From Geodermatophilaceae bacterium NBWT11 (GTDB lineage Bacteria > Actinomycetota > Actinomycetes > Mycobacteriales > Geodermatophilaceae), in NCBI GenBank assembly GCA_014218215.1, contig CP043652.1:248001-312000 (forward strand): a DNA stretch of 64,000 nucleotides, in the 5' to 3' direction. Positions 3,573 through 23,445 of this stretch are shown one piece after another; position 1 is the stretch's first letter, and every line of letters begins with the position of its first letter. Made by a program: the position numbers and the translations under genes. The notes beneath the pieces were generated by a model that saw nothing but the letters and a program-made list of their open reading frames with translations, searched no databases and was not told the DNA's origin.

Positions 3573-6206
3573 GTGTCGACACCCCGCACCGCACGACCCG
3601 CCGTCCTCGGCCTGACGGTCGCCGCCGTCGTCGCCGGCGGCCTGGTCACCGCCGCCGCCCCCGCTGCCGCCGTCTCCCCCGACGTCGTCATCGCCGAGGT
3701 CTACGGCGGTGGTGGCAACAACGGCGCCACGCTGACCACCGACTTCATCGAGCTCCGCAATGACGCCGGCACGGCCGTCGACCTGACCGGGTGGTCGGTG
3801 CAGTACGCCTCGGCCGCCGGCACCACGTGGCAGACCACCCCGCTGACCGGCTCGATCGCCCCCGGCGGCCGCTACCTCGTCGCCGAGGCCAGCGGGTCCG
3901 GCGGCACCGTCCCGCTGGCCGGCGTGGACACCACCGGCACCATCGCGATGAGCGGCACCGCGGGCAAGGTGGCGCTGGTCCCCTCGGCCACCGCGCTGAC
4001 CTGCGGCACCGGCTGCGCCGGCACGCCCGCCGTGCGCGACCTGGTCGGCTGGGGGTCGACCGCGGTCGGCGGAGAGGGCGCCCCGGCCCCGGGCACGTCC
4101 AACGCCACCTCGGTCTCCCGCACCGGCCCGGACACCGACGTGAACGCCGCCGACTTCACCGCCGGCGCGCCCACCCCCCAGGGGTCCGGCGCCGCCCCGG
4201 AGCCGGAACCCGAGCCGCAGCCCGAGCCCACGCTGCCGACCTGTGCCACCACCGCCGTCCCGATCGGGAGCGTGCAGGGCACCGGGGAGACCTCCCCGGC
4301 CGCCGGCACCACCGTCACCGTCCGCGGCACGGTGGTCGGTGACCTGCAGACCGGTGGCTTCGGCGGGTTCCACGTCCAGGACGCCGGGGACGGCGACCCG
4401 GCCACCTCCGACGGCGTGTTCGCCTACGCCCCCGGTGGGCCCGAGGTCGCCCTGGGCGACGTCGTCACCGTGACCGGCACGGCCACCGAGTTCAACGGCA
4501 CCACCCAGCTCAGCGGCGCCCTCTACACCGTCTGCGGCACTGCCGAGCTCCCCGCCGCCACCGCGCTGCCGCTGCCCTCGAGCACCGAGCAGCGCGAGTC
4601 CCTCGAGGGCATGCTCGTCGCTCCCCCGGCCGACCTCACGGTCACCGAGGTCTACGGACTGAACACGTTCGGCGAGCTGCTGCTGGCCACCGGTGGGCGC
4701 ACGCTGTCCCCCACCGAGGCCGCCGAGCCCGGCCCGGCCGCCCAGGCCGTCGCCGCGGACAACGCCGCCCGCTCCATCACCCTGGACGACGGGGTGAGCA
4801 CGAACCTGGCCACCAGCGGCCAGGCGCCGCCCTTCCTCGCCCCGGGCGACCCGGTGCGGGTGGGTGACACCGCGGTGCTGGACCAGGCGTTCGTGCTCGG
4901 CTACGGCTTCGGCGAGTACCGCCTCCAGCCGGCCGACGGCACCGCGGCGGGCTCGACGTTCACCCCGACCAACCCGCGCACCGACGCCCCCGCGCCGGTC
5001 GGCGGTGACCTGCGGGTCGCCGACTACAACGTGCTGAACTACTTCGTCACCTTCGGCGGCCAGGCGCGCGGCGCCACCACGCCGGCCGAGCTCGCCCAGC
5101 AGCAGGCCAAGATCGTCGCCGGCCTCACCGCGCTGGACGCCGACGTGATCACCCTGCACGAGATCGAGAACTCCTCGGTCACGACCCCGGCCACCCCGTA
5201 CGCCGCGGTGGAGACCCTGCTCGCCGCGCTCGAGGCCGCCGACGGCAACAGCTGGGCCTACGTCCCGGCCAGCGAGGACAGCGACGTCATCACCAACGCG
5301 ATCGTCTACCGCACCGACGTCGTCACCGCGGTCGGCGCCCCCCGGGTGCCGGCCGACCTGAGCGCCTTCGACAACGCCCGCACCCCGATCGCCCAGACGT
5401 TCGAGCACGACGGCGAGCAGTTCACGGTGGTGTCGAACCACCTCAAGTCCAAGGGCAGCGGCTACGGGGCCGGCAACACCGACACCGGGGACGGGCAGGG
5501 CGCCTCCAACGCCGACCGGGTGGCCCAGGCCCAGGCACTGGTGGCCTTCGCTGCCGAGCTCTCGGCCATCGACCCGGACGTGCTGCTGACCGGTGACTTC
5601 AACTCCTACCGGTTCGAGGACCCGCTGGACGTGATCCGCGACGCCGGGTTCACCGACATGGGCCCGGTGCTGGCCGAGGGCCAGTACAGCTACGTCTTCG
5701 ACGGCGGCTCGGGCTCCCTGGACCACGTGTTCGCCTCGCCCTCGATGGTCGGCCAGCTCACCGGGCTGACCGTCTGGGACACCAACGCGACCGAGTCCTA
5801 CGCCTACCAGTACGACGGCTACGAGCCGCTGTACGCCGCCGACCCCTACCGGGCCAGCGACCACAACCCCACGGTCCTGGGCCTGTCCCTGGGCGAGGCC
5901 GACACCGCGGCCACCGCCACGGTCGGCACGGCGCGTCCCTTCCGGGGTGACCGGCTGACCGTCACCGGCACCGACTTCGCCGCCGGTGAGCGGGTCACGG
6001 TCACCATCGGCGGCCGCCCGGTCGGTTCCGGGACGGCGGACGACGCCGGCACGGTCACCCTCACCCCGCGGGTGCCGGTCCTGCTGGGCGCCGGCGAGCA
6101 GGCCGTCGTCCTCACCGGGTCCTCCGGGGAGACCGCGACCACGTCGATCACGCTGCGCTCGGTCTGGCAGGAGCTGATCGACCGGCTGCGCGGCCTCTTC
6201 GGCTGA
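3573..6206 (+). CDS. Secreted ExeM/NucH-like nuclease: lamin-tail, OB-fold, EEP nuclease and Ig-like domains
   Basis: About 877 residues. A Sec signal peptide occupies roughly residues 1-35 and ends in AAPAAAVS. Next come a lamin-tail domain (about 40-160, VVIAEVYGGGGNNG ... FIELRN), an EPEPEPQPEP linker, an OB-fold domain like those of extracellular nucleases (about 225-340), an endonuclease/exonuclease/phosphatase domain (about 480-780) and a C-terminal Ig-like domain. The nuclease motifs are visible: VADYNVLNYF, ITLHEIEN (metal Glu), SNHLKSKG, LLTGDFNSY and ASDHNPTVLGL. It probably degrades extracellular DNA or nucleotides for phosphate or nitrogen. The GTG at 3573 is preferred because GAGGAG lies four bases before it; GTG 3561 is the alternative. 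A strong hairpin follows. Confidence 0.85.
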   Translation: MSTPRTARPAVLGLTVAAVVAGGLVTAAAPAAAVSPDVVIAEVYGGGGNNGATLTTDFIELRNDAGTAVDLTGWSVQYASAAGTTWQTTPLTGSIAPGGRYLVAEASGSGGTVPLAGVDTTGTIAMSGTAGKVALVPSATALTCGTGCAGTPAVRDLVGWGSTAVGGEGAPAPGTSNATSVSRTGPDTDVNAADFTAGAPTPQGSGAAPEPEPEPQPEPTLPTCATTAVPIGSVQGTGETSPAAGTTVTVRGTVVGDLQTGGFGGFHVQDAGDGDPATSDGVFAYAPGGPEVALGDVVTVTGTATEFNGTTQLSGALYTVCGTAELPAATALPLPSSTEQRESLEGMLVAPPADLTVTEVYGLNTFGELLLATGGRTLSPTEAAEPGPAAQAVAADNAARSITLDDGVSTNLATSGQAPPFLAPGDPVRVGDTAVLDQAFVLGYGFGEYRLQPADGTAAGSTFTPTNPRTDAPAPVGGDLRVADYNVLNYFVTFGGQARGATTPAELAQQQAKIVAGLTALDADVITLHEIENSSVTTPATPYAAVETLLAALEAADGNSWAYVPASEDSDVITNAIVYRTDVVTAVGAPRVPADLSAFDNARTPIAQTFEHDGEQFTVVSNHLKSKGSGYGAGNTDTGDGQGASNADRVAQAQALVAFAAELSAIDPDVLLTGDFNSYRFEDPLDVIRDAGFTDMGPVLAEGQYSYVFDGGSGSLDHVFASPSMVGQLTGLTVWDTNATESYAYQYDGYEPLYAADPYRASDHNPTVLGLSLGEADTAATATVGTARPFRGDRLTVTGTDFAAGERVTVTIGGRPVGSGTADDAGTVTLTPRVPVLLGAGEQAVVLTGSSGETATTSITLRSVWQELIDRLRGLFG

Positions 6207-15352: not shown

Positions 15353-15766
15353 TCAGAGGCGGGGCACCCACCGCTCCCCCCGCAGCGCGCCCCCCACCAT
15401 CTCCACGCCACGGGCCGCCGCGGCCAACCGGGCGCCCTCCCGCTCGTACGCCGAGACGGCCGCCTCCATGGCCTCCGGGGGCAGGTCGTCGGCCAGCTCC
15501 ACCCGCACCGTGCGCCAGCCGGCGCGGGCCGCCTCGAGCCCGGCGGTCACGTGGTCCCCGGCGAAGCGGGCCAGCAGCACCGGGTAGCGGCGCAGCACCT
15601 CGTGGGCGCGGTACTCCGGGGGCACCAGGTCGTACAGCCAGGCGATGGCGGTGCGCTCCCAGTCCGGGGCACCCGGCGGGCGGACCTCCGCGGGCCAGCC
15701 GGGCGGGGCGGTGCCGTCCCGGCCCAGCCCCTGGCGGGAGGGCTCGGCGCGGCCGGTCGACGTCAC
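15353..15766 (-). CDS. Conserved hypothetical protein upstream of dxs
   Basis: A 137-residue soluble protein with no family I recognise. The C-terminal 90 residues are ordered-looking ([53 protein letters not shown]) and predicted mostly helical. The N-terminus is Pro/Arg-rich. The start is GTG 15766, with another GTG immediately before it at 15769. It lies 75 bases upstream of the dxs start on the same strand, so may be cotranscribed. Gene-like third-position GC and conserved aromatic residues support it as real. Confidence 0.65.
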
Positions 15767-15798
15767 CACCCGAGTGTGCACCGGCGGTCCGACACCGG

Positions 15799-16425
15799 TC
15801 AGGACAGCAGCGCCGTCCGGAGGTCCTCCCCCACCGACCGGGCCGCCGGACCCGACGGGTGCACGCCGTCGTCGCTGTCGCCGGGGGCGTACCCGCCGTC
15901 CGGGGCCCGGACGGCGGTCATCGGGTCCACCCACTGCCAGCCCTGCTCCCGGGCGAGGCGCTGCAGCCGGCGGTCCAGCGCGCGCACCTCCGGGCCCCGG
16001 CCGTCCTCCGGCGCGACCGCCGAGAGCAGCACCCGCGGCACCCCGGCGGTCCCGGCGATCGCCACCAGGTGGTCGAGCACCTCGTCGGTGGGCACGTCGA
16101 GGTCGACGTCGTTGTTCCCGGCCATCAGCACCAGCACGTCGGCGTCCATCGGCTGCACGCCCGCGGCCATGTCCGCCGTGGTGGCCCCCGCGTGCGCCCA
16201 GCCGCCGAGCACGTCCACGCCGTCCCCGGTCGCCCACCAGGCCCAGGAGTCCTCGCCGATCTGCCCGGTGTCGAAGTCCGGGCTGTCCGCCTCGGTGATC
16301 GAGTCGCCCACGGCCACCACCCGCAGCACCGGGGACGACGCCGGCACCGCCCGCGGCGTCGCGACCGGCGCGGCACACCCGGCGAGCACCAGCACCCCGC
16401 CGACCAGGGCCGCCGCCCGCCTCAC
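15799..16425 (-). CDS. SGNH/GDSL-type hydrolase lipoprotein
   Basis: A 208-residue protein. The N-terminus is a lipoprotein signal with lipobox LAGC near residue 16. The SGNH blocks follow: [11 protein letters not shown] (catalytic Ser, block I), a Gly in AGATTADMA (block II), [10 protein letters not shown] (block III Asn) and DGVHPSG (block V Asp/His). Such enzymes hydrolyse acyl or acetyl esters on lipids or glycans at the outer face of the membrane. The GTG start overlaps the stop of the DUF2156 gene by four bases, so it is the last gene of a three-gene coupled operon with that synthase and the 18914-20218 esterase. Confidence 0.82.
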
Positions 16426-18917
16426 CGGGCACCGGACCCGGCGTGCTCGCGGACCGGCGCGGAGGCGGCCGGGCGGGCCCGCCGTCCGGCCAGCACGGCG
16501 CGGACCAGCCGCACTGCCTGGGCCGGCCCCAGGTACGGCAGGTAGGCCCGGGAGACCGCGCGGGCGATCCGCGGCAGGTCGGCCGGCCCGGGGTAGACCA
16601 GCCACAGCGCACGGTGCCGGGGCTGGAACTTGGCCTTGAACGCCAGCAGGGAGCGGAACCCGTAGACCGGCTCCATCCACCGCCCGGTGGTCTCCAGCAG
16701 TCGGGCCAGCAGGGCCGCCTCCGGCTCGCCCCCGGGCAGCGCCAGCGGGGCGCCGGACAGGCTGCACCACAGCGCACCCTCGGCCTGGAAGGCCAGCGCC
16801 GCGGTGCCGACGAGGAACTCCGTCGTCCCGGGCGGGCAGCCCGGTGCCCGCCGCATCAGGTCCAGCGTCCAGCCGACCGGCACGCCGTCGCGGTGCGCGG
16901 GCAGCCAGCTGGTCACCCCGTGCACCCGCCCGTCCGGGGCGAGGGCCAGCAGGCACCGGACGGCGGGGTCGGCGAGCTCGTCCAGCCCGCCCAGGGTGAA
17001 CCCCATCTCGGGGAGCCCCTTGCCGGCCAGCCACTCCTCCGACGCGCGGGCCACCTGCTCGCGCAGTGCCAGCGGTGCGCTCGCCCAGGTCACCCACCGG
17101 GCCTCGACGCCGTCCCGGGCGGCCCGGTTGACCGCCGTCCGCACGTCCTGCCAGCGCTTGCCCACGAAGGCCAGCTCGCCCAGCGGCAGCCAGGTCTCCG
17201 ACGCCACCTGCACCCGGTGCGCCCCGGGCAGGGAGGTGGTGACGGCGTCGGCGGTGTCGCCGGTCACCGAGTACCAGCACGGCGTCCAGCCCCGGGCGGT
17301 GCACCAGGCGGTGAACCCGGCGACCGCCTCGACCCGGGCCGCGGGCGGGCCGACCGGGTCCCCGGTGGTCAGCGCGACCCCGCCGACCACCCGGAACGCG
17401 ACGGCCGCGGACCCGTCGGGGGTGAACCACCAGCGGTTGCCCACCCAGGTGGTCATGAACGACAACGGGCCGTCGCCGTGCCGGTCGACCAGGGCGCGGG
17501 CCCGGGCGGCGTCCCCCCGGGGCACCGCCGGGCGCACGACGGCCCACGCGGTGCCCAGCAGCACCGCCCAGCAGGCCACCCCCGTCCAGTCGGCCAGCAC
17601 CCGGGCGGGCCCGTGCAGCGGGACCAGCCGGGGTGCCACCTCGCCCAGCCACCCCGGGGGCAGCAGCCGGGCGGGGAGGTCCAGCAGGAGCCGGCCCACC
17701 CCGGGCGGGTGCGCCCAGTCCCCCGCCAGCAGCGCCCCGGTGGCCAGGTACCCGGCCACGACCGCGGCGAGCCCGGCACCGGCCAGCACCGACCACCGGC
17801 GGGCGGTCCCCGGGGCGGCCGGGACGGCGAACCGCGACCGGGTCGACAGCAGGAGCCCCAGCACCGCGCCGGGCGCGACCACCGGAGCCCACAGCGACAC
17901 CGCCGGCAGGCTGGAGCGGTCGGCGCCCAGCGCGGTGAGCGCGTCGGCGGGGTGGCCGAGCACCGCGACCACGACGACGACGCCGACCAGCGCGAGGGCG
18001 GCGGAGAACAGCACCGCACCGACCCAGGCCGCCCGTCGTCCGCGCCGGAGCCCCTCGGCGAGCACCAGCTGCACCACCACCGGCAGCACCGAGAGCAGGG
18101 CGGGCCCGGGGCCCGCCAGGTGCGCCCGGGCCAGCAGCACCCGGCAGGCTGCCCGGTCACCGCCGCCGGCGCAGACCCGGTGCAGCACCTCCGCGGACGG
18201 GCGTCCGGAGACGAAGAGGTGGGAGACCACCGCCCACGGGCCCTCCGGGGTCCGCGACAGCGCGGCGAGCAGCGGACCGACCGCCGCGGCCGCCACGATG
18301 AGCGCGACCAGGGCCCGGGACTCCCGGCGGCTCACCGGGCCGCGGTCGGGTGACCGGCCCCGCCGCCGGGCCAGCACGACCCCACCGACCAGCCCGAGCG
18401 CGGCGCCGGCAGCGCGGTGCACGTCGCCCGCCGTGCCGGAGTAGAGCACCAGCATCGAGAGCACCACCCCCAGGCCCAGGCGCAGCCGGCGGCGGCCCAG
18501 CGGCGAGGCCCACGCTGAGGCCGCCGCGACGGCGGCCAGCACCCCGGGCAACGGCCCGGTCACGCCGGCCCCGGCGAGCAGGCCACCCCACCGGTCCCCC
18601 GTCCCGGCGAGGGCGGCCACCACCCCGGTGCCCACCAGCCCGGCCCCCACCTGCCCCGCGACGAGGGCGAGGCCGGTGCACCGGGTGCCCCAGCGGTGCT
18701 CGACGGGGCCCAGGAGTGCCACCACCACCAGCGCCGTCCCCAGCGCGGTGCGCGGGGTGGCCGCGGTGGGCAGTGCGGTCAGCAGCGTCCACCAGCGACC
18801 GGCGGACAACGGGCCGACGCCGGTGGCCCAGGAGGCCGGCGAGCCGAGCACCGCGCCGGCCAGCAGGGTGCCCACCAGCCCGGCGGTGAGCGGCACCCGG
18901 CGCAGCACCCCGGTCAC
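16422..18917 (-). CDS. Rhomboid-like membrane domain fused to DUF2156 (MprF-type aminoacyl-lipid synthase) domain
   Basis: An 831-residue protein. The N-terminal ~200 residues resemble a rhomboid fold (GRWWTLLTALPTA, then GPVEHRWGTR). The catalytic GxSG is replaced by GVTGPLPG, although a His remains in DVHRAAGAALGLVGG, so it is probably a pseudoprotease or a bundle of other function. Further membrane helices run to about residue 500. The C-terminal ~330 residues (MTTWVGNRWWFTPDG ... FVGKRWQDVRTAVNRA ... FKAKFQPRHRALWLVYPG) match the DUF2156 dual-GNAT domain of MprF-type enzymes, which move an amino acid from aminoacyl-tRNA onto phosphatidylglycerol or diacylglycerol. It overlaps the esterase gene upstream and the SGNH gene downstream, each by GTGA. 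Confidence 0.82.
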   Translation of the reverse strand: MTGVLRRVPLTAGLVGTLLAGAVLGSPASWATGVGPLSAGRWWTLLTALPTAATPRTALGTALVVVALLGPVEHRWGTRCTGLALVAGQVGAGLVGTGVVAALAGTGDRWGGLLAGAGVTGPLPGVLAAVAAASAWASPLGRRRLRLGLGVVLSMLVLYSGTAGDVHRAAGAALGLVGGVVLARRRGRSPDRGPVSRRESRALVALIVAAAAVGPLLAALSRTPEGPWAVVSHLFVSGRPSAEVLHRVCAGGGDRAACRVLLARAHLAGPGPALLSVLPVVVQLVLAEGLRRGRRAAWVGAVLFSAALALVGVVVVVAVLGHPADALTALGADRSSLPAVSLWAPVVAPGAVLGLLLSTRSRFAVPAAPGTARRWSVLAGAGLAAVVAGYLATGALLAGDWAHPPGVGRLLLDLPARLLPPGWLGEVAPRLVPLHGPARVLADWTGVACWAVLLGTAWAVVRPAVPRGDAARARALVDRHGDGPLSFMTTWVGNRWWFTPDGSAAVAFRVVGGVALTTGDPVGPPAARVEAVAGFTAWCTARGWTPCWYSVTGDTADAVTTSLPGAHRVQVASETWLPLGELAFVGKRWQDVRTAVNRAARDGVEARWVTWASAPLALREQVARASEEWLAGKGLPEMGFTLGGLDELADPAVRCLLALAPDGRVHGVTSWLPAHRDGVPVGWTLDLMRRAPGCPPGTTEFLVGTAALAFQAEGALWCSLSGAPLALPGGEPEAALLARLLETTGRWMEPVYGFRSLLAFKAKFQPRHRALWLVYPGPADLPRIARAVSRAYLPYLGPAQAVRLVRAVLAGRRARPAASAPVREHAGSGAR

Positions 18918-20218
18918 GACGGCAGACCGGTGTGCGCCGCCAGCCAGGGGAGGGCCTGCTGGAAGCCCGGGCCCCACACGTCCCAGGAGTGCCCGCCCGG
19001 GATCTCCGTGCTGGTGACGTCGACCCCGGCGGCCCGCAGCGCAGCGGTCACCTGACGGGCCTGCGGGCGGTACTCGTCGTCCCCGGCGCCGACGGTGAGG
19101 TACGCCGAGAGCTCCGGGTACCGCCGGGCGGCGAGTTCGTGCAGCGGGTCGACGGCGTCGAAGGCCGCGGTGTCGCCGCCGAAGGTGGCGGCCACCGTGG
19201 CGGTGGCATCGCCCAGGGTGGGGCCGGCCTGGCCCGAGGCGTCGAAGAAGGTCGGGAACAGGCCGGGGTGGGCAACGGCGAGCTGCAGGGCGCAGGTGCC
19301 GCCGTAGGAGAACCCGCCGACCGCCCAGTGCGCACGGTCGGGGTCCACCTGCAGCGTGTGGGTGATCCAGGCCGGCACGTCCTGGCTGAGGTAGGTGTCG
19401 GCCTTCCCCAGCGCGGAGTCCAGGCACAGCGGGTTGGTGACCTCCCCGCCCAGGTCGTCGGGCATCACCACCACCGGTGCGAGGCCGTGGTGGGCGTCGG
19501 CCCAGGCGTCCAGCCGCTGGGCGATGCCGCCGCCGTCGATCCAGTCCCGGGGGCTGCCCGGCTGGCCGCCGAGCACCACCCACACCGGCAGCAGCGGCCG
19601 GTGCGCGGTGAGGTACGCCGGCGGCAGGTAGACCCAGGCGGCCCGGGCCGGGAAGCCCGAGGCGGTCGCCGGGATCGTCACCTGGGACAGCGCCCCGGTC
19701 GTCGGCACGTCCCCCGGCGGGGTCCAGTCCGCCGGGGTCACCGGTGCGGCGGTGTCGCCGGTGAGCACCTCCTGGGCGTCCACCTCGTCGTAGGGCGGCA
19801 GCTGCAGGGCTGCGGCCACGGTGGGGTACGGCTGGTAGACCCGGTTGACCCCGTTGGCGGCGCCGAGCACCACGGCGAGGACGGCGACCACGGTCAGCGC
19901 CCGCCGCCACCAGCGCTGCCCGGGCCAGGACACCACGGCCAGCGCGAGACCGAGCAGGCCCAGGCCGATCCACAGGAAGACCAGCCACGGCAGCCCGTCC
20001 GGGAACGGCTTCAGCACCCGGAGCAGCACCCACACCAGACCCAGGCCCAGGCCCGCGACCAGCACCGCGAGCGGCACCCGGCGGGTGAGCCACCGACGGC
20101 TGCGGTGCGAGGTGACGAGCACGAGCAGCCCGACCACGACCGCCAGCACCAGCGCGGTCGCCAGCGGACCGGTCACCAGGTGCAGCCCGGTGAACCAGCG
20201 CCACGCCCGTCCGGCCAC
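18914..20218 (-). CDS. Membrane-anchored esterase D/mycolyltransferase-like alpha/beta hydrolase
   Basis: A 434-residue protein with four N-terminal membrane helices (to about residue 125) and a C-terminal esterase domain. The nucleophile elbow is GGFSYGGTC, with a likely acid in VGAGDDEY and the His in PGGHSWDVW. The Arg-rich loop SHRSRRWLTRR between helices 1 and 2 predicts that this loop is cytoplasmic and the esterase domain faces outside. The GTG 20218 has GGAGGAGG five bases upstream, the best ribosome site in the region. It is first in the operon with the aminoacyl-lipid synthase. Similar esterases beside such synthases hydrolyse aminoacylated lipids; the role here is inferred. Confidence 0.83.
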   Translation of the reverse strand: MAGRAWRWFTGLHLVTGPLATALVLAVVVGLLVLVTSHRSRRWLTRRVPLAVLVAGLGLGLVWVLLRVLKPFPDGLPWLVFLWIGLGLLGLALAVVSWPGQRWWRRALTVVAVLAVVLGAANGVNRVYQPYPTVAAALQLPPYDEVDAQEVLTGDTAAPVTPADWTPPGDVPTTGALSQVTIPATASGFPARAAWVYLPPAYLTAHRPLLPVWVVLGGQPGSPRDWIDGGGIAQRLDAWADAHHGLAPVVVMPDDLGGEVTNPLCLDSALGKADTYLSQDVPAWITHTLQVDPDRAHWAVGGFSYGGTCALQLAVAHPGLFPTFFDASGQAGPTLGDATATVAATFGGDTAAFDAVDPLHELAARRYPELSAYLTVGAGDDEYRPQARQVTAALRAAGVDVTSTEIPGGHSWDVWGPGFQQALPWLAAHTGLPS

Positions 20219-20337
20219 CGGGTCCTCCTCCCGTGCGGGTGGTCCGGTCGACCGCCCGGCAGGAAGGTCGGCCGCGGTGCTGGGGGGTCCCTGCACGCCG
20301 GTGGTGAGCTGGCTGCGGGTCGGGGTCCCCAGCGAGG

Positions 20338-22185
20338 GTGCAGCCGGTCCCCAGCCGCACGCCAGCCCGGCGGCCCACCTTGCGGCCCGTGACCCTCGTT
20401 GACGTCCGGCCGCCCGCGCCGGTGCCCGCCCCACCGCGGGCCCGCCGCCGGGCGCGTCCCGACCGGGTGGCGCTGGGCCTGCTGCTGGCCGGGACGACCG
20501 CGCTGTACACGGTGGCGCTGCCCCGGTCGGGCTGGGGCAACGCGTTCTACGCCGGGGCAGCCCAGGCCGGGGCGGCGAGCTGGCGCGCCTGGTTCTACGG
20601 CGCCTCGGACGCCCCGGGCTCGATCACCGTGGACAAGCCCCCGGCCGCGCTGTGGGTCATGGGCCTGTCGGTGCGGCTGTTCGGGCTCTCGAGCTGGTCG
20701 CTGCTGGTGCCCGAGGCGCTGATGGGCGTGGCTGCGGTGGCGGTGCTGGCGGCCACCGTGCGCCGGCTGCTGGGCCCGTGGCCGGGGGTGCTGGCCGGCC
20801 TGCTGCTCGCCCTCACCCCGGTGGTCACCCTGGTCTTCCGGTACGACAACCCCGATGCGCTGCTGACCCTGCTGCTCGTGCTGGCCGGGTGGGCCACCAG
20901 CCGGGCGCTGGAGGACGGCCGGACCCGCTGGCTGCTGTTGGCCGGGGTGGTCGTCGGGTTCGGGTTCCTGACCAAGTCGCTGCAGGCGTTCCTGGTGCTG
21001 CCCGGGCTGGCCGGTGCGTACCTGGTCGCCGGTCCGCCGCGGCTGCGTCGTCGGCTGGGTCAGCTGGTGCTCGCCGGGGTGGCCCTGGTCGTCGCGGCCG
21101 GGTGGTGGCTGCTGGTGGTCGCGCTGGTCCCCCGGGCCGACCGGCCGTGGGTGGGCGGCACCGCCGACGACAGCCCGCTCGGCCTGGCCCTCGGCTACAA
21201 CGGGCTGGGCCGGCTCGACGGCGACGAGTCCGCCGGCGGCGCCGGGCTGCACCACGGGCCCAGCACCCTGGGCCGGTTGTTCGGCAGCGCCGGCGACCAG
21301 GCCGGGTGGCTGCTGCCCACCGCGCTGCTGGCCCTCGTCGCCGGGCTCTGGCTGGTCCGCCGGGCCCCGCGCACCGACCGGGTGCGGGCCGCGCTGCTGC
21401 TCTGGGGCGGGTGGCTGCTGGTCAGCGCCGTGGTCCTCGGGCTGATGAAGGGCATCGAGCACAGCTACTACGCGGTGGTGCTCGGTCCCGCGGTCGCCGC
21501 GCTGGTCGCCGTCACCGGCACCCTCCTGTGGCGCCGACGCGACCGCACCGCCCGGGTGCTGCTGGCCCTCGGCGTGCTGACCGCGGTCGCCTGGGCCGCC
21601 ACCCTCGTCGTGCTGCGGATCGGTGGGTCGCTCGGGCTGGTCCTCGCGATCGCCGCGACCGGCGGGCCGGCCGTCGTCGGGCTGCTGGGGCGGCGGCGCA
21701 CGTGGGTGGCCGGACTCGCCGTCCTGGCGGTGTCCCTGGGGCCGCTGGCCTGGTCGGTGGGCACCGCCGCCCGGGCGCACACCGGCAGCAACGTGGTCGC
21801 CGAGCCTCCCCCGCGGACGGCAGCCGGCTGGTCGGCCCCCCGCCGGGACGGCGCGGGCATCAGCGAGCGCGCACTGCGGCTGATCGAGCAGGGCGCCGAG
21901 GGCTGGACCTGGGCCGCGGCGACCACCGGGCACCACGGCGCCTCGATCCAGCTCGCCGCCGGCGTCCCGGTGATGGACGTCGGCGGCTTCGCCGGCCAGG
22001 ACCCCTCCCCCACGTTCGACCAGTTCGTCGCCGACGTCACCGCGCACCGGGTGCACTGGTGGGTGGCCGGGCTCTCCGGCGGCCCCGACGCCCTGCGGAT
22101 CCAGACCTGGGTCGCCGCGCACGCCACCCGGGTCCCGGCCGGGGAGACCACCCTGTACGACCTGTCCGCCCTGGCGACGGGCTGA
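20338..22185 (+). CDS. GT39/ArnT-like membrane glycosyltransferase
   Basis: About 615 residues with roughly a dozen membrane helices. The N-terminal region shows the GT-C pattern of lipid-linked sugar transferases: NAFYAGAAQAG, a periplasmic loop with SITVDKPPAALWVMG (the DKPP motif) and LVFRYDNPDALLT. A periplasmic C-terminal domain follows (HHGASIQLAAGVPVMDVGGF ... ETTLYDLSAL). GT39-like YkcB/ArnT proteins use polyprenyl-phosphate sugars to modify envelope glycans or lipids outside the cell. It is divergent from the esterase operon (119 bases apart). GTG 20338 and GTG 20389 are both possible starts; the conserved part begins after both. Confidence 0.85.
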   Translation: MQPVPSRTPARRPTLRPVTLVDVRPPAPVPAPPRARRRARPDRVALGLLLAGTTALYTVALPRSGWGNAFYAGAAQAGAASWRAWFYGASDAPGSITVDKPPAALWVMGLSVRLFGLSSWSLLVPEALMGVAAVAVLAATVRRLLGPWPGVLAGLLLALTPVVTLVFRYDNPDALLTLLLVLAGWATSRALEDGRTRWLLLAGVVVGFGFLTKSLQAFLVLPGLAGAYLVAGPPRLRRRLGQLVLAGVALVVAAGWWLLVVALVPRADRPWVGGTADDSPLGLALGYNGLGRLDGDESAGGAGLHHGPSTLGRLFGSAGDQAGWLLPTALLALVAGLWLVRRAPRTDRVRAALLLWGGWLLVSAVVLGLMKGIEHSYYAVVLGPAVAALVAVTGTLLWRRRDRTARVLLALGVLTAVAWAATLVVLRIGGSLGLVLAIAATGGPAVVGLLGRRRTWVAGLAVLAVSLGPLAWSVGTAARAHTGSNVVAEPPPRTAAGWSAPRRDGAGISERALRLIEQGAEGWTWAAATTGHHGASIQLAAGVPVMDVGGFAGQDPSPTFDQFVADVTAHRVHWWVAGLSGGPDALRIQTWVAAHATRVPAGETTLYDLSALATG

Positions 22186-22194
22186 TCGCAGGGG

Positions 22195-23445
22195 TCAGGG
22201 ACGGAGCGGCTCCAGCAGCGCCACGCACTCCACGTGCGCGGTCATCGGGAAGGCATCAAAGGCCCGCAGGCCGGTGACCGACCAGCCGGCCTCGGCGAAC
22301 ACGGCCACGTCGCGGGCCAGGGACGCCGGGTCGCAGGCCACGTAGACGACGGCCCGGGCGCCGGAGTCGGCGAGCACGGCGCTGACCTCCCTGCCGGCAC
22401 CGGCGCGCGGCGGATCGAGGACGACGACGTCGGGCGGGCCGTCGAGCTCGGCCAGCAGCCCGGTCAGCCCCTCGGCGTCCACCGCCCCCTGCCAGACCTC
22501 GGCCTGGGGCAGGTCGGACAGGTTGTCCGCAGCCGCGGCGCAGGCCCCGGCGTCGTACTCGACGCAGACCACCTGCCCCCCGACCCCGACACCGGGGGCC
22601 AGCGAGCCGCCGAACAGGCCGGCGCCGGCGTAGAGGTCCAGCACCCGCTCGCCCTCGACGACGGCGGCGTACCCGGCGACCGCCCCCATCAGGGCGTCGG
22701 CCGCGGCCGGGTGCACCTGCCAGAAGCCGGTGCCCTCGACCTGCCAGTCGCGGTCCCAGGCACGGCGTTCGGCCCGCTGCCCGTCCGCGGCGGCGGCCGC
22801 GGGCGGCCGGACCACCTTCGTGGACTGGGCGTGGCCGCGACGGTCCAGCCGGGTGGTGGTGACGCCGCCGACCGAGTCGACGGCGACGTCGACCGCCCCG
22901 GCGCCGCCCCAGGTGCGGCCCAGCACCGCCGCGACCGCCGGCTCGACGGTGATCGGACAGTCGCTGAGCACGTGCACGTCCCGTGAGCGGTGCGGCCGCA
23001 GGCCGGGGCGCCCCTCGCGGTCGACGGCGAACCGGGCCCGGGAGCGCCAGCGCAGCGCGCCACCGGGCAGCTCCTCGACGTCCAGCGACACGTCCATGCC
23101 GGCGAGGCGGGCGAACTGCTCGGCGATCACGTCGCCCTTGAGGCGGCGCTGGGCGACCGGGTCGACGTGCTGCCAGTCGCACCCGCCGCACCGGCCGGGG
23201 CCGGACTCCGGGCAGGGTCGCTCGACCCGGTCCGGGGAGGCCTCGAGCACCTCGACGGCGTCGGCGCGGCAGTAACCCGGGTGCCGGTCCTCGGTGACCG
23301 CGACGACGACGCGCTCGCCGGGCAGCGCGTGCCGGACGAAGACCACCCGGCCCTCGTGCCGGGCCACGCAGTGTCCGCCGTGCGCGACCGGCCCCACGGT
23401 GACCTCGAACCGCTCCCCCAGCCAGGAAGGCCCCTGGTCCCTCAC
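22195..23445 (-). CDS. TRAM-domain class I SAM RNA uracil methyltransferase (TrmA/RlmC/RlmD family)
   Basis: A 416-residue protein. An N-terminal TRAM domain (about 10-65, FEVTVGPVAHGGHCVARHEG) is followed by an iron-sulfur-type cysteine cluster (CPESGPGRCGGC). The SAM-binding fold carries VLDLYAGAGLFGGSLA, and VLDPPRAGAG and VYVACDPASLARD carry the catalytic residues, with the Cys of ACDP as nucleophile. These enzymes make 5-methyluridine in rRNA or tRNA; the exact target cannot be told from sequence. The GTG start overlaps the stop of the KimA-like transporter by four bases, an arrangement also seen in mycobacteria. Confidence 0.88.
   Translation of the reverse strand: MRDQGPSWLGERFEVTVGPVAHGGHCVARHEGRVVFVRHALPGERVVVAVTEDRHPGYCRADAVEVLEASPDRVERPCPESGPGRCGGCDWQHVDPVAQRRLKGDVIAEQFARLAGMDVSLDVEELPGGALRWRSRARFAVDREGRPGLRPHRSRDVHVLSDCPITVEPAVAAVLGRTWGGAGAVDVAVDSVGGVTTTRLDRRGHAQSTKVVRPPAAAAADGQRAERRAWDRDWQVEGTGFWQVHPAAADALMGAVAGYAAVVEGERVLDLYAGAGLFGGSLAPGVGVGGQVVCVEYDAGACAAAADNLSDLPQAEVWQGAVDAEGLTGLLAELDGPPDVVVLDPPRAGAGREVSAVLADSGARAVVYVACDPASLARDVAVFAEAGWSVTGLRAFDAFPMTAHVECVALLEPLRP

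Follow-up and report, generated by a model that had tools for sequence, protein, structure and literature searches.

The best-matched characterised counterpart of the gene pair considered here is PesT/AlaDAGS of Corynebacterium. AlaDAGS yields alanyl-diacylglycerol (Ala-DAG; Gill et al. 2023), and the same authors attribute the alanyl-phosphatidylglycerol (Ala-PG) of C. glutamicum to a later step, in which the amino acid would move from diacylglycerol (DAG) to phosphatidylglycerol (PG); the esterase gene is pesT (excerpts of PMC10580965). PA0920/PA0919 of Pseudomonas provides a synthase-hydrolase precedent (PMC7916210, likewise in excerpt). Here we describe a three-gene cassette within a 64,000-nucleotide window (C1:248001-312000) of the one-contig, 4.59 Mb genome of the soil actinobacterium Geodermatophilaceae bacterium NBWT11. 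In common with PesT/AlaDAGS, it encodes a PF00756 membrane esterase and a non-LysX DUF2156 synthase; it differs by an extra coupled SGNH lipoprotein and by direct 4-nt overlaps between genes. We consider it probable that the cassette is an accessory module for aminoacyl-lipids, similar in kind to PesT/AlaDAGS, which would make an aminoacyl-lipid and hand its aminoacyl group on by transacylation outside the cell membrane, with an additional SGNH step. New here are a pseudo-rhomboid domain in this class of synthase and the lineage-specific addition of the SGNH gene; otherwise the module is of a known kind.

The synthase has 12 predicted transmembrane (TM) segments, with both termini and the DUF2156 domain placed inside by positive-inside charges over alignments. 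The initial annotation had called it a DUF2156 synthase, which the PF09924 match confirms, while leaving its rhomboid-like N-terminal domain unrecognised. The DUF2156 domain and the adjoining TM domain are shared with canonical MprF: residues 203-792 align with residues 348-860 of R. tropici MprF. Within this second TM domain, an invariant Cys pair (residues 249/258) lies in a predicted outside loop. An extracytoplasmic DUF2156 domain with different chemistry, as in mycobacterial LysX2, where fusion data support that placement (excerpts of PMC8974105), is very improbable here. LysX2 has three or four TM segments, and in the window synthase the charged loops 73-81, 133-144, 185-201, 288-301 and 359-374 are predicted to share the inside face with the DUF2156 domain; the LysX2-like topology was rejected on this predicted pattern.

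Ahead of the MprF-like part, modelling and profile comparison give the synthase N-terminus a six-helix rhomboid fold. In hhalign this domain reached 94.4 percent against genuine rhomboids, where two TM controls scored 0.3 and 0.8 percent; the genuine rhomboids were chosen by their dyad motif, their dyad being no independent result. A value of 99.2 for the middle TM domain against the N-terminal alignment reflects residues common to both cuts and is no evidence. PF01694 is listed for 61 of 69 relatives (E up to 5, best 1.4e-7), with none for the window's own copy. Foldseek returned no match to the N-terminal model at E <=0.001 (best 0.013); its first 34 matches are rhomboid-superfamily chains, and a VIA-align re-check clearly separates such chains for this model. 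GlpG-type rhomboid proteases carry a Ser-His dyad, whereas the window domain lacks it and is fused to an aminoacyltransferase. The catalytic Ser position holds Ser in 25/69 relatives and Leu123 in the window; the catalytic His position holds Arg in 63/69, His in 0/69 and Arg168 in the window. An active rhomboid protease was rejected on the absence of the dyad, and the domain resembles the inactive rhomboids iRhom and Derlin in this respect. We found no description of a rhomboid fused to an MprF/LysX-type synthase among the papers listed in a search of mainly open-access literature; in the excerpts of PMC6656915, 'rhomboid' and 'MprF' concern different proteins.

Canonical MprF has a PF03706 flippase domain in the place that the pseudo-rhomboid occupies in the window synthase. 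Pfam listed only PF09924 for the latter, with no PF03706 match at E up to 1, and we therefore do not file it as canonical MprF. LysX of mycobacteria and corynebacteria has the DUF2156 and MprF-like TM domains in common with it, but carries a C-terminal lysyl-tRNA synthetase (LysRS) domain, whereas the window synthase ends after DUF2156; LysX identity was rejected on this absence and on a score of only 127 bits, where the cut-off is 742. Derlins and other inactive rhomboids have been proposed to thin or open the membrane. It is conceivable, if rather doubtful, that the pseudo-rhomboid replaces the MprF flippase in this way, a dead rhomboid opening or thinning the membrane and thereby letting aminoacyl-DAG made inside pass to the outer leaflet, with the transacylase loading PG there and the SGNH protein editing the product. 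A second DUF2156 system in the same genome (gene at about G000:C1:1633592-1635904; L218:5093-7405) weakens the plain replacement story, since it has a PF03706 flippase gene (E 5.7e-18), overlapping the start of the DUF2156 gene, in addition to a rhomboid-like domain.

This second gene was rejected as LysX-like: it is without LysRS and has a C-terminal rhomboid-like domain instead. When cut out, the C-terminal part matches PF01694 at E 2.9e-4; its 21.5 bits fall slightly short of the 22.6-bit cut-off, which three same-genus orthologues pass, and hhalign gives it 97.5 to the N-terminal domains and 94.8 to genuine rhomboids. The fusion is full-length in 8/112 genomes, the catalytic His position being kept in 8/8. 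On these profile matches, rhomboid-like domains are joined to DUF2156 in two orders, N-terminal in the cassette and C-terminal in the second system. The last 30 residues of the second gene (L218 about 5093-5180) match short stretches elsewhere in the genome, and also in G081 and G099; the gene end looks as if supplied by a dispersed short DNA repeat.

The esterase-synthase pair is old, widespread in actinobacteria and of an already-known kind. A full-length synthase orthologue occurs in 18/112 family genomes, with one more present as a fragment at a contig end. The esterase is adjacent in all 17 orthologous family loci read, and a 4-nt ATGA/GTGA overlap is available at the junction in 17/17; adjacency and overlap exceed chance. 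At the order level, 161/298 genomes have an esterase match and 167/298 a synthase match (E <=0.001). A wider survey covered the best 80 of 574 confirmed named actinobacterial loci, with start codons chosen by script. The esterase is present in 63 of these. In 55 it immediately precedes the synthase in the same orientation (17 overlapping, 19 at <=100 bp, 18 at <=300 bp and 1 farther), and in 8 it is otherwise placed.

The SGNH gene had been taken as an addition to the known pairs, and this holds: the PesT/AlaDAGS-type pair recurs widely, whereas the third gene is neither old nor widespread. It follows the synthase in 11/17 family loci, or 11/14 of those testable, three of the six SGNH-free loci ending within 0.9 kb. 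The synthase-SGNH 4-nt overlap is found in 9/11 loci; L036 shows a one-base overlap, and the SGNH start is ambiguous in L034. SGNH relatives of at least 53 percent identity occur in 13 family genomes, all 13 with a synthase match, while weaker relatives are common (any match in 52/112). Two loci beyond the family also have an SGNH lipoprotein gene after that of the synthase: L153, with an ATGA overlap, and L163, detected only once L153 was added to the profile. Both are Paenarthrobacter, and they make up 2/6 Arthrobacter/Paenarthrobacter loci among the best 80. Apart from four Geodermatophilaceae loci and these two, the best 80 contained no SGNH relative, and a profile search found none in six further loci (L270-L275). 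The three genes thus co-occur elsewhere, the point on which the initial annotation had staked its proposal, in 11/14 sister loci and two Paenarthrobacter loci. The recurrence of the arrangement outside the family supports a functional link between SGNH protein and synthase.

Both partner proteins are placed outside. The esterase has 4 TM segments followed by a PF00756 alpha/beta hydrolase domain, which charges averaged over alignments predict to be extracytoplasmic; S304, D380 and H410, invariant in 38 aligned relatives, are its proposed catalytic triad. The SGNH blocks GDS, G(N/S)ND and DGxH are kept in 12/12 aligned orthologues, and correspond to what we take to be the GDS, Gly, N and DxxH blocks of SGNH hydrolases. 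The lipobox is present in the sequence, its Cys kept in 11/12 orthologues and absent in L044. A search of the SGNH sequence against solved structures gave no match below E 0.34. In these respects the initial annotation was accurate: three minus-strand genes with GTGA at both junctions, an esterase domain outside and an SGNH protein with a lipobox.

Every activity of the module, like the identity of its amino acid and lipid, is inferred; what the sequence itself gives is the order of the genes and their translational overlap, their domains, the rhomboid fold, the predicted topology and the conserved catalytic residues of the two hydrolase-fold proteins. The cytoplasmic DUF2156 domain would use aminoacyl-tRNA to load an amino acid, probably alanine, onto a neutral lipid, most likely DAG. 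The aminoacyl-lipid would then cross to the outer leaflet along a path that the pseudo-rhomboid and the six-helix MprF-like domain may surround. Outside, the anchored esterase would act mainly as a transacylase that takes the aminoacyl group off DAG and places it on a different acceptor, for instance PG, and the SGNH lipoprotein may remove or re-route the acyl group, or trim the lipid.

An unlikely but substantial alternative is that esterase and SGNH lipoprotein both hydrolyse the synthase's aminoacyl-lipid outside, thereby setting its level. Smith et al. 2015 reportedly found the upstream esterase to be needed for Ala-PG formation, not hydrolysis. The initial annotation had proposed such a make-and-remove module, with neighbouring esterases that hydrolyse the product: the coupling of a synthase to an extracytoplasmic esterase stands, but hydrolysis fits only PA0919 in Pseudomonas (PMC7916210), and removal is not supported by Corynebacterium, where the paired esterase is tied, partly by the excerpts of PMC10580965, to formation of Ala-PG rather than its loss. 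We prefer handing on to removal because Corynebacterium Ala-PG is described as a product of transfer from Ala-DAG to PG. In favour of removal, the hydrolase folds of both window proteins keep their catalytic residues, and PA0920/PA0919 is a precedent with a synthase gene and an extracytoplasmic partner enzyme in common; its architecture is different, however, and PA0919 is likened to the window esterase by role.

Several observations weigh against the preferred transacylation module. PF00756 members are mostly hydrolases, and hydrolysis keeps some probability here. In 17 of the best 80 loci no esterase was found in the stretch examined; 4 of these have <1.5 kb upstream, but 13 have at least 1.5 kb there. 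The SGNH gene is missing from L033, L035 and L041 despite at least 2.7 kb of sequence (3/14 testable loci). The window synthase has 12 TM segments, whereas six predicted helices are published for Corynebacterium AlaDAGS proteins (excerpts of PMC10580965), these being other proteins and another predictor. That C. glutamicum AlaDAGS shares the architecture described here we infer by an indirect link, through L183. This Corynebacterium-like synthase has the same N-terminal domain as that of the window, and its esterase and synthase genes lie ~3 kb apart. Although its branch is long, it groups with the actinobacterial full-length synthases (SH-aLRT 95), in a tree where L183 stands for the Corynebacterium non-LysX type. 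In the Corynebacterium-like genus, the pseudo-rhomboid occurs in 9/30 DUF2156 loci fetched, plus L183; long LysX-type frames are without it.

The cassette belongs to a larger accessory unit. In G079, a same-genus genome whose two flanking genes are more identical to those of the window than in any other of the 56 genomes searched, the two sides of the unit are only 72 bp apart and both flanks have 89 percent DNA identity. Because G079 lacks exactly this stretch, the SGNH, synthase, esterase and glycosyltransferase (GT39) genes were gained or lost together there, and the mobile unit here comprises four genes, GT39 included. The initial annotation had noted the divergent GT39 gene beside the cassette but missed its membership of the same insertion/deletion unit. 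At G079:C25:131500-138500 (L239) the whole unit is cleanly absent, in a natural deletion or pre-insertion state. The claim that the cassette breaks a conserved core order was borne out by a survey of the gap between orf137 and the APC permease gene in the 56 genomes, in 3 of which the two genes lie on different contigs. The gap is <=3.5 kb in 36/41 cassette-free genomes with both genes on one contig and 3.7-10.9 kb in the other 5, compared with 5.7-7.9 kb in 8 genomes with the cassette at this site and 1.9-3.0 kb in 4 with the cassette elsewhere.

The presence of GT39 in this unit bears on a further, improbable, explanation, in which DUF2156 aminoacylates a target other than a membrane lipid (glycolipid, envelope glycan precursor or peptide) and esterase, SGNH protein and GT39 tailor the same component. 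The DUF2156 fold does resemble Fem enzymes and aminoacyl-tRNA-dependent peptide synthases; its closest matches in fold and sequence are nevertheless lipid synthases, and GT39 adjoins the cassette in only 6/17 sister loci of the family.

Some further observations concern the esterase family. C265 and C309 are invariant in 38 esterases and possibly form an extracytoplasmic disulfide. In a mycobacterium-like genome (L184:2393-7123), a same-family esterase lies directly downstream of LysX, so that the family pairs with several synthase types. In a Corynebacterium-like genome (L185:2590-6334), a same-family esterase adjoins a longer DUF2156 protein, of canonical MprF type by eye, and at L187:3858-8109 a DUF2156 protein that is shorter and has no rhomboid-like domain neighbours an esterase 52 percent identical to that of the window.

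Table 1. Features of the cassette and its surroundings, in window positions.
Feature	Position	Strand	Basis
Esterase, PesT-like, PF00756	18914..20218	-	Open reading frame; Pfam E 5.1e-18
DUF2156 (LPG_synthase_C) membrane synthase, 831 aa	16422..18917	-	PF09924 E 5.8e-73
Pseudo-rhomboid domain, about residues 6-190 of synthase	18348..18902	-	Profile, hhalign, structure comparison
Second TM domain, about residues 203-460	17538..18311	-	Six-helix, MprF-like
Cytoplasmic aminoacyltransferase domain (PF09924), residues 474-775	16593..17498	-	Pfam, fold
SGNH lipoprotein	15799..16425	-	PF13472 E 1.2e-14; lipobox LAGC
Esterase-synthase stop/start overlap GTGA	18914..18917	-	Sequence
Synthase-SGNH stop/start overlap GTGA	16422..16425	-	Sequence
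Divergent GT39-type glycosyltransferase	20338..22185	+	PMT_2 E 6.5e-35; YkcB_C E 3.5e-16
Accessory unit, four genes	15725..22206	.	Replaced by 72 bp in relative G079

The module would bear on the route by which actinobacteria bring aminoacylated DAG and PG to the outer leaflet, and on why Ala-DAG exists. A dead rhomboid within the synthase offers a definite and testable possibility for how the substrate gains access or is transferred, and the repeated presence of the SGNH lipoprotein suggests a third step. The cassette-free G079 offers a natural comparison for lipidomics. Should the rather doubtful reading of the pseudo-rhomboid as a flippase replacement hold, the two orders of rhomboid-DUF2156 fusion would mark a general partnership between the rhomboid fold and lipid aminoacylation.
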